DNA of 32,131 nucleotides from a virus, in the IMG/VR virus record IMGVR_UViG_3300033146_002715, positions 1 to 32,131 of that record. One strand, given 5' to 3'. The notes beneath the pieces were generated by a model, which had not been told where the DNA came from, made no database searches, and was given only the letters and a program-made list of their open reading frames with translations. This document shows positions 7,799 to 17,561 of this stretch, piece by piece; positions within the stretch are counted from its first letter, which is position 1; the number at the start of each line of letters is the position of its first letter. The translations under genes were made by a program, and so were the position numbers.

Positions 7799-7953
7799 AA
7801 AAATACAAATAATAAAGTTAATGAAATTAAAAATGTCAATACACCAATTACATAGGTTTTAATTGTATAAATTAAATTGTTATATTTAGCACTTAAAGCG
7901 TAATATTCTAATTCTATTTTTGATAAATCTAATTGTTCATTTTTATTTAACAT
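7795..7953 (-). CDS. 52-aa single-TM protein (possible lysis accessory)
   Basis: Start chosen at ATG 7953 (MLNKNEQLDL) because AAAGGTG lies seven bases upstream. An in-frame ATG at 7983 lacks this. The N-terminal 30 residues look like a charged amphipathic helix. A single hydrophobic segment (YVIGVLTFLISLTLLFVFF) forms the C-terminus. This N-helix/C-anchor plan is that of XhlA-like hemolysin/holin accessory proteins, but the resemblance is architectural only. It overlaps the end of the homing endonuclease gene by 11 bases and its TAA shares bases with the stop of the convergent tail gene. Confidence 0.55.
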   Translation of the reverse strand: MLNKNEQLDLSKIELEYYALSAKYNNLIYTIKTYVIGVLTFLISLTLLFVFF

Positions 7954-8539
7954 TTTTAGCACCTTTGTTATATTTTTTACCAAGGGATTTATGTATCCAT
8001 GTTCCTTGATTTAGTAGTTCGACAGGTTGTAATGATAATTCGCCTGTTTTAATATTTCGTAATATCATTTTTCCTTGATGAGCATTAGAAATTTTAATTT
8101 TAGTTGCTTTATCTCTAGGTTTATTTAATTTAGCTTTTGAAATTTTTTCACTTCTAATTTTATTTTTTTCGTTTGATAATATATTAGCAGTTGAAGAACC
8201 GTTAATTAAATTTAATACTAAATCTTCTTTTAAAATTTGATTTAAAATCAATTTTTCAAGTTCATTTGCTAATTTAACATTATTTGAACTAAACAAAATA
8301 TTTTTAGTTAAATTAGATTTACCGTGTTCTTTAATATAGTTTGTTAAGTTTTTACCACTACCGAAATAATTGTTCTTTTTGTAGTGTCGAACAGTTTGTT
8401 TTCCAACATAAATAAATTCGTTATTAATGTTTGTAACATAAGTTGTAAAATATAAATCTGATGTAGATTCTTTATTGTTTTGCTTAAAGTTTTTAGTGAT
8501 TGACTCGATTTCAGTTTTGATTTCGTTAAATGTTTTCAT
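7943..8539 (-). CDS. GIY-YIG homing endonuclease with NUMOD3-like repeats
   Basis: A 198-aa free-standing nuclease. A degenerate GIY-YIG core occupies about residues 30-110 (TTYVTN...EFIYVGK, NYFGSG, YIKEHGKSNLTK, a Glu in ANELEKLI). Two NUMOD3-like DNA-binding repeats follow (RSEKISKAKLNK near 129-140 and TKIKISNAHQGKM near 146-158), then a C-terminal segment typical of phage Seg/Hef-type enzymes. It would cleave a related phage lacking the gene and spread by repair. The first motif is YVT rather than GIY, but the YVG tyrosine and the Glu are present, so activity is plausible. SD AAAGGA; a TATAAATA-bearing 15-mer sits about 55 bp upstream. It is inserted antisense between the tail and terminase modules. 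Confidence 0.8.
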   Translation of the reverse strand: MKTFNEIKTEIESITKNFKQNNKESTSDLYFTTYVTNINNEFIYVGKQTVRHYKKNNYFGSGKNLTNYIKEHGKSNLTKNILFSSNNVKLANELEKLILNQILKEDLVLNLINGSSTANILSNEKNKIRSEKISKAKLNKPRDKATKIKISNAHQGKMILRNIKTGELSLQPVELLNQGTWIHKSLGKKYNKGAKNVK

Positions 8540-11823: not shown

Positions 11824-13160
11824 TTATAGTTTTAGAAATTCTTCTTTAGCAGTCAATTCAAGTTTTTTATTTTTATTTTTATTACGAGTAATTTTTGCCT
11901 TTCTAGTAGGAGTATAATTATCATATCTGTTGCACCAAATCTTGATTTAATTACTTTACCAAACAATTTATCACCAACTTCCTCTTTCTTATATAAACTC
12001 ATAATAAAATCAGAATCAGAATTTATTTTATCACTTTCAGCAATATTTGATTGATCACCAGAAGAATTTTTCTCAACTGAACGATTAAATTGAACTGCAC
12101 TTATTACAGGTGATTTAAAAATATATGATAAAGCTCTCAGTTCTTTTGCAACATCACCTAATTTTTCAAATGTATTACTAGATTTTGTTGGATTGTTTGG
12201 TATTAATAATCCTAAATAATCCACTATAATTACATCAACATTAAAATTTTGATTATCTTGAATTTCATTTAAATAAAATTCTATATCTTTTGCACAAATT
12301 GTTGCAGGTGGAAACTCTTTTACTTTTAATTTTCCATGTTTTATATTTTCAATTTTATTTTTTATATGAGTAATATTATTTTTTAATTTATTAATATTAA
12401 AATTTGCAAAATTTGCGTGTAATCTTTGTGCATAAGCATCTTGAGACATTTCACAAGTTATAATAACAACATTAAGATTTTGTTTTACAAAATTAACAGC
12501 TAAATTTGTTAACATTATAGATTTTCCAACACCAGCCCTTGCAGCAAAATTTAAAAGACATTTACCATTTTTTGGAATACCACCTTCGAGTGCTACATCT
12601 AAATCTGTTAATAATGTAGGTATTTTTTCATTTGGCTCATTTAATTTTTCAAGTTGTATATCTAAATCTCCAAAATAATCTAAACCTAAATCTTTTTCAT
12701 TAATTGAAATTTTTCTACATTTTTCAAATGAGTTGAATATTTCAGACATTTTATCATCTCTTTCAGTTAATGTATTTAATGAAGACATTACAGTATCATG
12801 TATGGTACAACATTTTATGAAATGTTCAATATTGTTATTTACAAAGTCAATATCAGTATATTCATATTTTAAACTGAGTTTTAAAATAGATGATATTATT
12901 TTTAGTTCTACTTCTAGTTTAGATTGTGTTATATATTCTTTAATGATTGATACTAAAATATTTAGATGTGGGTGTTTACCATTTTCTTTATAATATTTAA
13001 TTAAAATATTAGTAATTAAATTATAATTACTATCCTCAATAAAGTTATTTTCATAATTTTCGCTTATAAATTTTAATGTTTTAGTATTTTTTAAACATTC
13101 TTTAACAATACATTTATATACATCTTTTTCATCCATTTCTAATTTTTTTGAATTATTCAT
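11824..13160 (-). CDS. replicative helicase, DnaB/T4 gp41-like, C-terminus in another frame
   Basis: A RecA-fold hexameric helicase that unwinds DNA at the phage fork. In the main frame (11853-13160, 435 aa): Walker A AARAGVGKS (206-214), Walker B DVIIVDYLG (309-317), motif H3 glutamine SAVQFNR (354-360) and the Arg-finger region KSRFG (405-409). The first 150 residues are the primase/loader-interacting N-domain. After KSRFGATD the frame turns into an implausible hydrophobic/basic tail. The -1 frame, open from about 11946 to the TAA at 11824, reads instead RYDNYTPTRKAKIT and on to KEEFLKL, which looks like the true C-terminus (about 35 aa). The shift lies between 11922 and 11946 and has no slippery run. 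It may be an indel or assembly error. The core motifs are intact. Confidence 0.85.
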
Positions 13161-13161
13161 A

Positions 13162-14168
13162 TTATTTCACCACAACTTTTGTTAATAAATTATTTAAATT
13201 TTGATTAATTAATAATCTAATTTCATCATTTTTTATAATGTCACCATATAAGCGAATAAAATACTTAGGTGTGTTATCATTAAAAAATTTTAGTTTTTTA
13301 GCACCATTTATTATATGTTCTCGTGCTTTTTCAAGTTTTGTTTTAGTTGTGGGTGTTTTTACAATATTTTCTTTACATGTAAAATCATTTATTATTTTTT
13401 CATATAGAAAACCTTTCCATCGTTGTTGTTTTTCTGAAAGTTTACGCTTTCTACCAATTTGTTTTAAAAATTTTATTTCATGTGGTTGAAATAAATATGA
13501 AAAATGTGTAATAGTATCTTTATTAAATGATTTATTATCATCTTTTAAAACATTTTTTATACTTGAAAATATTGTGGTTTTTGATAGTTCAGGAAGAATC
13601 CTATTAATACAACAATTACCAACTAATAATATTGGGTAAACCAGTTCATTATCAATTTTTATTGGGTTTTTATTGATAATATATATTAATTCATAAATTG
13701 GTTTATGTTTACAACTACAAACTTCACCTTCTTCAGTTGTAGTATTTAAGTATTTAATATAATGAACATTCCATTCTTTATTTTTAAGAATTGTTTTCAT
13801 ATTACAACCTTTTGAAAATCTAATAATATGTTCAATTAAATATGATTTATTTCTTTTATTCTGTCCACCAATTTGTAAATTATATACATCATCACGATTA
13901 ATAAATTCTAAATTAACTAATTCAATTTCTTTATTATTCATTTCATCAAAATTATCAAACACAAATAAAATATCTTTTTTAAAGTTTTCACTACCTTTTT
14001 CTTTAATTGCTTTTGTGATAAATACACCACTACCCATATAATCATCATTAATATTTGTAGTTTGATGTTGACCAATATAAATGAAATTGTTAGTTAAATC
14101 AGTTATTTTATAAATTGTATAATAAACTTGATTAATATATGAGTATTTTTTGAAGTCAAGTTTTTCAT
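13162..14168 (-). CDS. GIY-YIG endonuclease with Cys-rich domain, start in another frame
   Basis: The nuclease core reads YYTIYKI, FIYIGQHQT, DDYMGSG, KEKGSENFKKDIL, a catalytic-type Glu in NNKEIEL and a YNLQIGG end. About 50 residues later lies a probable metal-binding module, CSCKHKPI followed by VGNCCINR. The C-terminus is basic. The only ATG with a good site (14168, AGGAGTT, overlapping the polymerase stop as ATGA) reads 21 codons and stops. The core is in the -1 frame, which has no usable start. The first frame passes A_AAA_AAT (A6 run, 14146-14151); a -1 slip there yields about 335 aa with the complete core. An in-frame start at ATG 14037 would lose YIG. Mobile gene sitting precisely between polymerase and helicase. 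Confidence 0.7.
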
Positions 14169-15985
14169 TTTATAACTCCTTTTTTATATTTTTTATATTC
14201 AATTTTATTCAATTCTAGTTTACTACAATAACCTAAATCAGTTAAAGTTTTGTTCAAAATACGTTTGAAAATATCCATAGAATCATCATCTAAATAAATT
14301 GCATCATGAACTGTAAATATTATATTAGGTGTTTTGAAATTATGATCAGCTTTATATTTATGAATAGCTGGAATTAACTTTTTAAATATTATATCAGATT
14401 CACCCTTTTGTAATAATTTTGATGAATTTTTATATGAATTTTTTCCACTTTGAATGAATTTTAACCAAGTATAAATGAATGGAAATTTAGTTTTGAAGTA
14501 TATACAAATATCATTATTATTTTTCAATTGTCGTTTTATACTGTCCATAAAAAATGGTAACATCTTTAATTTAACGTCATTTCTAGTTAAATTTGTGTCA
14601 TTTCTAGTGTTGATAAATAATCTAGCATCTTCATAAATATCAGATTTAATGACACGTTTAAATTCTTTAAAGTTTTCATTTAAAGTTGATTTAATGCTTT
14701 TAACTTTATTTTTAAATTCAGTTAAATGAAAACTTTGTCGCTCATATAAATCTAATTGAGAGTTTTGTGTAATATCTTGGTTATCTTCTAAATCTATTAA
14801 ATTATTCAAATTTTCTTGTTTGGTATTAAAATAATTATCAAAATCAAATTCTGAATAATGTTTAAATGCTAAATTACCAGCAATTGCAGGTTGTGCAGCT
14901 TTTAAGTCAAATTCTGCAATTGAATGTTTTTTATATAATAAAGAACTTCTAAATAATTTACAAATTCTTGTTAGTTGACTATGTTTACGTCCGCTTTTAT
15001 CTGTTTTAATATGTATAATATTTTTATTGTAAACTATATCAATAAAATTTTCAATTTGACTTGGAATAGTTTTTAGTTTTTTTGTTAAATCTTCATTTTT
15101 ATATTTTAATTCATATCGTTTTGTCAATAATATTGTTAGGTATTTTGCATCATTAGGTAATATTGAATCTAACTTGTCAATTTTATAATAATCTTTATCT
15201 TTTTTTGCAGTTCGTTTTAAAAATGTATCAAAAAATTTAGCATAATTTGTAGTTATAGTATCAGTAGTTAAATAATCTTCATTCATATACCATTTTTCAC
15301 ATTGACCAGATATATGAGAATGTCTATTTTTTTTAGTGTTATTTGTAGATGTGTTTTCAACTATCTTATCAGTTAATGGAATATTAATAATAATGTTATT
15401 GTCTTCAAACCAAGTTTTATATTTACAATAATATTTAGATGATATTACAGAATTAAAATATGCTTGTCCAGTTGTAAATGGAATATTACCGACTTCAAAA
15501 TCATTTGATTTAAATTCACGTTTAGGTTTGTCTTTATTTTTTATATTTTCATTAAAAGATTTTACTTTTTTATTATAAAGATTATTTTTTTCACGTTGAG
15601 TTTTAATAAAATCAGATTTTGCTTTATTTTTAGATGCTGTTAAAAGTGTAGCAAACATTAAAAGTTTTCTTGTGTCTAAATCAGATGTAAGAATTTTATT
15701 AAAAATTTGTCTATTCATTTTTAATTCAACATGTTTGTCATAAATTATACAGTTATTTTCATAGTCTAAGTTTGATTTGAAGTTACGTTTGTCTAAACTA
15801 GTTTTAATGTTTTGAGTGTTGTGAACAATATTAATTAAATAATAATTTTCTAAATTGTTTATTGGTTCTGTGTGATTTATTAAATGTTTAGTTTTATTTA
15901 CTAAATCATATAAGTAGTTGATATTATTCATATCATCTAATGTGGCATCTTTTAAAAGATGTTTTAATGAAGATTCTACGTTCAT
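14165..15985 (-). CDS. divergent family-A-like DNA polymerase
   Basis: 606 aa, ATG 15985 with AAAAGGA. The C-terminal half keeps the pol I palm/fingers order. An SGRKHSQ block (331-337) resembles the TGR..S motif. Motif A is EFDLKAAQP (358-366, Asp360). A D-I-Y helix lies near 449, and motif B is R468-x3-K472 as in the O-helix, but the following Tyr/Phe positions are replaced. Then LLQKGESDIIFKKL (524-537) resembles the QG.AADI.K helix, and motif C is FTVHDAIYL (557-565, His560-Asp561). Motif A to C spacing is about 200 residues, close to pol I. The N-terminal 320 residues match no exonuclease I can see. Next to the helicase it is the likely replicase. A primase- or RNA-polymerase-like role cannot be excluded. 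Confidence 0.68.
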   Translation of the reverse strand: MNVESSLKHLLKDATLDDMNNINYLYDLVNKTKHLINHTEPINNLENYYLINIVHNTQNIKTSLDKRNFKSNLDYENNCIIYDKHVELKMNRQIFNKILTSDLDTRKLLMFATLLTASKNKAKSDFIKTQREKNNLYNKKVKSFNENIKNKDKPKREFKSNDFEVGNIPFTTGQAYFNSVISSKYYCKYKTWFEDNNIIINIPLTDKIVENTSTNNTKKNRHSHISGQCEKWYMNEDYLTTDTITTNYAKFFDTFLKRTAKKDKDYYKIDKLDSILPNDAKYLTILLTKRYELKYKNEDLTKKLKTIPSQIENFIDIVYNKNIIHIKTDKSGRKHSQLTRICKLFRSSLLYKKHSIAEFDLKAAQPAIAGNLAFKHYSEFDFDNYFNTKQENLNNLIDLEDNQDITQNSQLDLYERQSFHLTEFKNKVKSIKSTLNENFKEFKRVIKSDIYEDARLFINTRNDTNLTRNDVKLKMLPFFMDSIKRQLKNNNDICIYFKTKFPFIYTWLKFIQSGKNSYKNSSKLLQKGESDIIFKKLIPAIHKYKADHNFKTPNIIFTVHDAIYLDDDSMDIFKRILNKTLTDLGYCSKLELNKIEYKKYKKGVIK

Positions 15986-16693: not shown

Positions 16694-16729
16694 CTGAATA
16701 ATGATCTGATCTGATTGATTGATCTAAAC

Positions 16730-16923
16730 TGAATACTGAATACTGAATACTGAACTGAATACTGAATATAAATACTGAATAGAGAGTATTATAATAATAA
16801 TAAATATATAGACAATTAAAAAAAAATGAATACTGAATACTGAATACTGAACTGAATACTGAATATAAATACTGAATAGAGAGTATTATAATAATAATAA
16901 ATATATAGACAATTAAAAAAAAA
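16730..16923. repeat. two perfect 97-bp tandem repeats with nested TGAATAC heptamers
   Basis: Copy 1 is 16730-16826 and copy 2 is 16827-16923; the next eight bases begin a third copy. Each unit opens with three TGAATAC heptamers, then degenerate versions, a small stem (AATACT...AGTATT), an ATAATAATAA run and A9. Upstream, GATCTGATCTGATTGATTGATC is a further set of short direct repeats. Heptamer iterons beside AT-rich DNA resemble an initiator-binding array. A recent slippage duplication is the simple alternative. Confidence 0.8.
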
Positions 16924-16973
16924 TGAATACTTATCAAAACTCAACAAGCAAAAAGACTAAGAGTATGCTAATC

Positions 16974-17462: not shown

Positions 17463-17561
17463 ATGCAAACTGAAGAATGTTCAAATTGTGGAAATATTGT
17501 ACAAGTTATTGAAGGTCAATGTGTTAGATGTAATATTTGTGGTGCAAAAACTTGTGGATAA
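17463..17561 (+). CDS. 32-aa zinc-ribbon protein
   Basis: ATG 17463 with GGAG nine bases upstream inside the previous gene. The product has C-x2-C (CSNC), then EGQCVRCNICGAKTCG. The second half closely resembles the C-terminal zinc ribbon of B12-dependent (class II) ribonucleotide reductases (EGC..C..CG.S.C). It is a self-standing mini zinc finger able to bind one Zn. Function unknown; it could bind nucleic acid or partner the preceding protein. The stop is followed by about 300 non-coding bases before the portal gene. Confidence 0.65.
   Translation: MQTEECSNCGNIVQVIEGQCVRCNICGAKTCG

Follow-up and report, generated by a model that had tools for sequence, protein, structure and literature searches.

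A highly divergent family-A-like polymerase in a 32-kb tailed-phage contig and its relationship to divPolA2

Introduction

The divergent PolA known as divPolA2 has no exonuclease, carries a novel N-terminal domain and is found in barbaviruses and others beside a family-B polymerase (PolB); a match between it and mitochondrial RNA polymerases has also been reported (Yutin et al. 2024, PMC11348598). Further short polymerases of this kind have been linked to the initiation of DNA chains. TV-Pols, whose genes lie beside those of helicases, have been predicted to be primase-polymerases (Iyer et al. 2008, PMC2579912). In SCCmec, the primase CcPol-MP has the core of a family-A polymerase and starts DNA chains helped by an OB-fold partner (PMC7581432, PMC10061031).

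We describe here P0001, a protein encoded in a 32,131-base AT-rich viral record (the window, that is, the whole stretch of DNA analysed). A first reading of the raw sequence, hereafter the original prediction, had taken it for a family-A-like polymerase, and this proved to be real and nearly correct. New here are the size and boundaries of the family to which P0001 is assigned, the relation of that family to divPolA2, and the contrast between its accessory place in large phages and its apparent sole use in a small one.

Results and discussion

The P0001 gene and its motifs

The gene and its parts are as follows.

14165..15985, minus strand: P0001, divergent family-A-like polymerase, 606 aa (open reading frame, family HMM, modelled core)
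15011..15985, minus strand: N-terminal region, residues 1-325, without a recognised domain (Pfam, PHROG; low-confidence model)
14216..14998, minus strand: predicted palm and fingers core, residues 330-590 (pLDDT mostly 75-92; Foldseek)
14948..14992, minus strand: GRxHxxxT...R block preceding motif A, residues 332-346 (G332, R333, H335, T339 and R346 invariant)
14885..14914, minus strand: motif A, EFDLKAAQPA, residues 358-367, with catalytic D360 (E358, D360, Q365 and P366 invariant)
14543..14584, minus strand: motif B / O-helix, R468-x3-K472 ... M480-D481 (K472 invariant; helix 468-480 in the model)
14396..14413, minus strand: LQKGES motif, residues 525-530 (L525, E529 and S530 invariant, Q526 nearly so)
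14300..14314, minus strand: motif C, TVHDA, residues 558-562, with catalytic D561 (T558, H560 and D561 invariant; turn between two strands in the model)

The frame is open on the minus strand, and stops close the opposite plus strand at 14165-15985; no open frame was longer than 157 aa in any of 30 Markov copies (first-order) of the window, against the 606 aa of P0001. Motifs A (E358-FDLKAAQP), B (R468-NDV-K472) and C (T558-VHDA), with Asp360 and Asp561, had been read from the raw sequence in pol I order, and all were recovered in this 606-aa frame. The near-normal spacing that had also been claimed holds in part: motif A to C spans 201 residues versus 177 in E. coli PolI, and the A to B distance of 108 is due to an extra helical stretch of ~60 aa, absent from the relatives of P0001.

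Alignment with homologues, which the original prediction had proposed as a check, left the catalytic residues unchanged in all 59 family sequences. The invariant columns (P0001 numbering) include R333, H335, T339, R346, E358, D360, Q365 and P366, and further K472, L525, E529, S530, T558, H560 and D561. R468 of motif B is not among them, being K in some relatives. The SQIE and YG signatures are indeed rewritten, as had been noticed: where PolI has SQIE, the family has NSQP and P0001 has AAQP, and the YG that follows motif B is replaced by FG in the family and by MD in P0001. Judged from the alignment, the steric-gate Glu position of DNA polymerases would be Gln in P0001, and the Tyr position of motif B would be Phe in the family and Met in P0001. 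Across ~75 homologues the key residues do not vary, or hardly do, and P0001 scores 44.6 bits against the family model where shuffled sequences do not (see below); on this comparison its catalytic motifs are evidently not chance matches.

Predicted fold and the N-terminal region

The AlphaFold model of P0001 reaches good confidence in residues ~330-590 alone. In a Foldseek search with this core the top matches were family-A DNA polymerases (2bdp and 8ef9 among them; E ~0.02, probability reaching 1.00), Bst PolI and Pol theta included, over ~185 residues. A 403-aa marine-phage protein named 'putative DNA polymerase I' also matched (E 7e-8). The model obtained for a 397-aa relative is a good one (pLDDT 88.5, pTM 0.81); it matches the apicoplast polymerase of Plasmodium (E 8e-5), Taq and Bst PolI and, more weakly, yeast and human mitochondrial RNA polymerases (E ~1e-2). 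The search thus gave the palm/fingers match to family-A polymerases that had been anticipated. In the P0001 model, D360 is at a strand end, K472 at the O-helix position and VHDA in a strand-turn-strand, with D561 in the turn; judged from secondary structure, this predicted placement is that of a family-A palm, and a palm lacking the two aspartates together in one site, the outcome named beforehand as contrary to the prediction, was not seen.

Residues 1-325 had no match in a Pfam and PHROG scan, and the model of this region has pLDDT mostly <50 in residues 205-324 and low values elsewhere. Compared with the N-domain of the family, they gave a borderline score of 23.0 (null maximum 20.7). The original prediction saw no 3'-5' exonuclease in the long N-terminus, and the Pfam scan likewise detected none in P0001, a result to be read with the poor modelling of residues 1-325; in the 397-aa relative, the stretch ahead of the polymerase core leaves no room for an exonuclease. 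Our best explanation proposes that the N-terminal region of P0001 is its own, standing in place of the Klenow exonuclease/thumb.

A family of short polymerases related to divPolA2

P0001 itself matched nothing in Pfam or PHROGs. A tblastn search of 50,697 phage records produced hits at E 0.02 to uncultured 636-735 kb phages (residues 497-563), and a family built stepwise from the proteins of those phages led to ~400-aa relatives in huge phages. This 'NSQP' short family-A polymerase family, a working label defined in this analysis, comprises ~75 different proteins, and its loci in IMG/VR (viral contigs) number at least 142; seven genome loci also hold members, Planctomycetota and Bacteroidota among them, and a Hymenobacter plasmid protein is a homologue. 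The family HMM, built without P0001, scored P0001 at 44.6 bits, compared with at most 4.6 in 500 shuffles, and P0001 has the family signature in order: GRxH(T/S)xxT...R, ExDxxx(S/A)QP, the K of motif B, LQxxES and T(V/I)HD. We therefore regard P0001, on this signature and score, as a long-branch member of an unnamed family. Family members matched no convincing family in Pfam or PHROG, one of them matching phrog_15971 'DNA polymerase I' at E 0.002.

Other searches added little. Single-sequence searches of viral contigs with P0001, the terminase and the helicase found no relatives, so there is no close sister phage for comparison, and tblastn of P0001 against plasmids found none. A sequence-profile search of the PDB returned nothing real; a match there between P0001 and Ku by sequence (E 1.7) was rejected as chance. 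The idea that the Hymenobacter homologue might be the Rep of its plasmid was dropped, as a separate replication initiation protein is encoded on that plasmid.

The comparison with divPolA2 used a profile rebuilt from 12 phage proteins. The C-regions of the family and of divPolA2 matched at 97-98% in hhalign (97.9%, E 6e-13), where reversed-profile controls gave <1%, and P0001 alone scored 28.3 against the divPolA2 palm/fingers (null maximum 20.5); the HMMER comparison with P0001 alone was not significant. The N-terminal domains did not match (family versus divPolA2 0.7%, P0001 versus divPolA2 0.3%). A tree of the palm region placed divPolA2 as monophyletic at 100/100 and P0001 on the other side with the 'NSQP' family; the P0001 branch is long (2.27 changes per column), which calls for long-branch caution and leaves its exact position unsure. 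The profile matches and the split in the tree together place P0001 in a group that is sister to divPolA2, outside divPolA2 itself. The proposal that P0001 represents a distinct phage polymerase clade is accordingly borne out by fold search, alignment, profile comparison and tree, with the amendment that the family also occurs in Bacteroidota and Planctomycetota and is a relative of the published divPolA2.

Common to divPolA2 (AUR84708, barbaviruses, Vibrio phages, ICP1) and the family are a palm/fingers core without a 3'-5' exonuclease, a length of ~430 aa, the GR(x)H/Y block, a motif A of the form D-x-x-x-x-(H/E/Q)-P, LQxx(D/E)S and HDS. The phages that carry divPolA2 and those that carry the large-phage family members are also alike in having a regular PolB. 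Unlike divPolA2, P0001 is 606 aa long, reads AAQP and VHDA, has an unrelated N-terminal domain and comes from a small phage in which no other polymerase was found.

With canonical family-A polymerases (PF00476; E. coli PolI, T7 gp5) P0001 shares the predicted palm/fingers, the A-B-C order, the two Asp and the K of motif B. It differs in having no Pfam match (the PF00476 profile did not find it in the Pfam scan or in a genome search), in its replaced SQIE and YG, and in having no exonuclease found. In hhalign the family had no significant profile match to canonical PolA or T7 RNAP, and divPolA2 itself likewise has none to PolA. TV-Pol and the CcPol-MP / PolA-SSB primases resemble P0001 in their short family-A core, two aspartates, Arg before motif A (in a hairpin), RxxxK and helicase linkage; the linked helicase is D5-like or Cch in those systems and gp41/DnaB-like beside P0001. 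No SSB- or MP-like partner for P0001 was recognised by sequence, and a search with the family HMM gave no match in Ma-LMM01, a TV-Pol phage whose TV-Pol gene was not located.

Relatives in large phages

PolB was present in 15 of the 16 large-phage records with a relative, and the other had a PolC-type enzyme. In at least five of these phages there is also an ORF of primase size, ~330 aa, with a match to Toprim_2 that in four of them exceeds the curated cut-off. The relatives lie among structural, variable or miscellaneous genes, not in replication clusters, and no gp41-like helicase was seen near any of 198 sequences within the flanks examined. Because PolB is nearly always co-encoded, the family gene is accessory in large phages; the idea that it serves there as sole replicase or sole primase was rejected, given the PolB or PolC and the Toprim_2 ORFs. 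The PolB matches in these phages fall in separate partial ORFs of ~470-530 aa, which suggests that their family-B polymerases are split over two or more genes.

Conserved neighbours were seen among 87 large-phage loci: a ~179-aa protein (cluster c1, e.g. L075 7388-7924) follows the polymerase in 57, and a ~442-aa protein (cluster c3, e.g. L064 4538-5863) precedes it in 51. Representatives of both had no Pfam match. In LR756511, an uncultured 595-kb phage, the start of a 427-aa DNA_pol_A-domain protein (E 1e-19, L006 3666-4949) overlaps the stop of the family member by 4 bases (ATGA); two short family-A polymerases of different kinds here lie in tandem.

The 32-kb contig

The contig holds tailed-phage genes for major tail protein, tape measure, terminase, portal, major head protein and head decoration. 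Three further features surround P0001.

13162..14037, minus strand: homing-endonuclease-like gene, between polymerase and helicase (phrog_314, E 7e-12)
11853..13160, minus strand: gp41/DnaB-like replicative helicase (Pfam DnaB_C 1.7e-29; phrog_19 3.6e-56)
16726..16931, plus strand: iteron-like array of TACTGAA heptamers with two 97-bp direct repeats, 99% identical (repeat analysis)

P0001 is upstream of the homing-endonuclease-like gene and the helicase, all three on the minus strand, with the helicase one gene away. The pairing with a gp41-like helicase that had been proposed is right as to the enzyme, which has ~25% identity to T4-like primase-helicase subunits; as to the pairing, the neighbourhood is known from one contig, the homing-endonuclease gene intervenes, and the linkage recurs in none of the 198 sequences with relatives, within the flanks examined. 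A second homing-endonuclease-like gene (phrog_314) is found at 7943-8539 (minus strand), beside the terminase gene.

The array, 206 bp long, sits just upstream of P0001 in the noncoding gap between the replication and structural arms. TACTGAA occurs 19 times in the window (mean 7.5 in shuffles), 10 of these inside the array, which we take as a candidate replication origin. A tiny ORF of ~32 aa at 17464-17560 (plus strand) has two CxxC pairs and is zinc-ribbon-like (MQTEECSNCGN...CVRCNICGAKTCG).

PF00476, DNAG_N, Toprim_2 and Zn_ribbon_DnaG had no match anywhere in the contig, and a PHROG scan of its larger ORFs found no other polymerase or primase, so that P0001 is the only polymerase-like gene found in it. 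The contig is linear with no exact terminal repeat and may be incomplete, in which case it could lack a gene for a primase or polymerase; this weakens every argument from absence.

Possible roles of P0001

The active site looks intact, and template-directed synthesis by P0001 is thus very probable. We favour, at a probability of roughly 0.45, the reading that P0001 is an active non-proofreading polymerase and most likely the phage's primase-polymerase; this role is one that we infer, as are its activity, substrate, priming, use of the origin and cooperation with the helicase. P0001 would be a family-A palm/fingers polymerase with metal-binding D360 and D561 and without a proofreading exonuclease. 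The gp41-like helicase would expose single strands next to the iteron-type origin, where P0001 would then start DNA chains and extend them briefly, and the host replicase would take over the chains so begun. CcPol-MP and TV-Pols have been proposed to work in this manner (PMC7581432, PMC10061031, PMC2579912). The reading is drawn from the clustering with a helicase gene, the failure to find another primase and the CcPol-MP precedent. It is supported by the invariant catalytic residues, the family-A fold match, the weaker match to mitochondrial RNA polymerase, an enzyme that needs no primer to start chains, and the iteron-like array upstream. Against it stand the absence of a helicase beside the relatives, the lack of an identified MP/SSB-like partner and the low-confidence N-terminal model; moreover, the PolB and Toprim_2 ORFs that accompany the large-phage relatives mean that the function shared by the family need not be priming. 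It is somewhat unlikely that a gp41-like helicase and a self-priming family-A polymerase without an exonuclease, a primase-polymerase belonging to neither the DnaG nor the AEP class, are all that the 32-kb phage uses for its replication.

The same helicase cluster and the status of P0001 as the only polymerase-like gene found would also fit a main replicative DNA polymerase, primer-dependent and non-proofreading, whose N-terminal region replaces the thumb. We consider this unlikely, since P0001 has no exonuclease, recognisable thumb or processivity element, since large-phage relatives coexist with PolB or PolC, and since phages of ~32 kb often leave bulk synthesis to host Pol III. The large-phage members, with their structural or variable neighbourhoods and additional PolB, instead recall the situation of divPolA2, for which an accessory part in repair, gap filling, translesion synthesis or counter-defence has been suggested (PMC11348598); for P0001, which lies in a helicase cluster of a contig with no other polymerase found, such a part is decidedly unlikely. 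A single-subunit RNA polymerase like that of T7 or of mitochondria, transcribing late genes or making RNA primers, seems improbable: the family model matches mitochondrial RNA polymerases at E ~1e-2, as reported for divPolA2 (PMC11348598), and the apparent loss of the steric-gate Glu and of the motif B Tyr would suit such an enzyme, but the best structural matches are DNA polymerases (E 8e-5), T7 RNAP gave no significant profile match, and no promoter-recognition or specificity-loop region was recognised in P0001. Finally, the long branch and the MD that replaces the family FG might point to a degenerate, inactive polymerase serving as a scaffold; with all invariant active-site residues kept despite the divergence, and the 606-codon frame intact, this is very improbable.

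Significance

The family to which P0001 is assigned is a large one (at least 142 viral loci as well as Bacteroidota and Planctomycetota) without a Pfam or PHROG model, and distantly related to divPolA2. As the only polymerase-like gene found in its contig, P0001 may copy or prime phage DNA, and a small phage with P0001 as its only polymerase candidate makes the question of replicase, primase or RNA polymerase directly testable. If the primase-polymerase reading is true, the 'NSQP' family, widespread in giant phages, would be a further family-A branch able to start chains.
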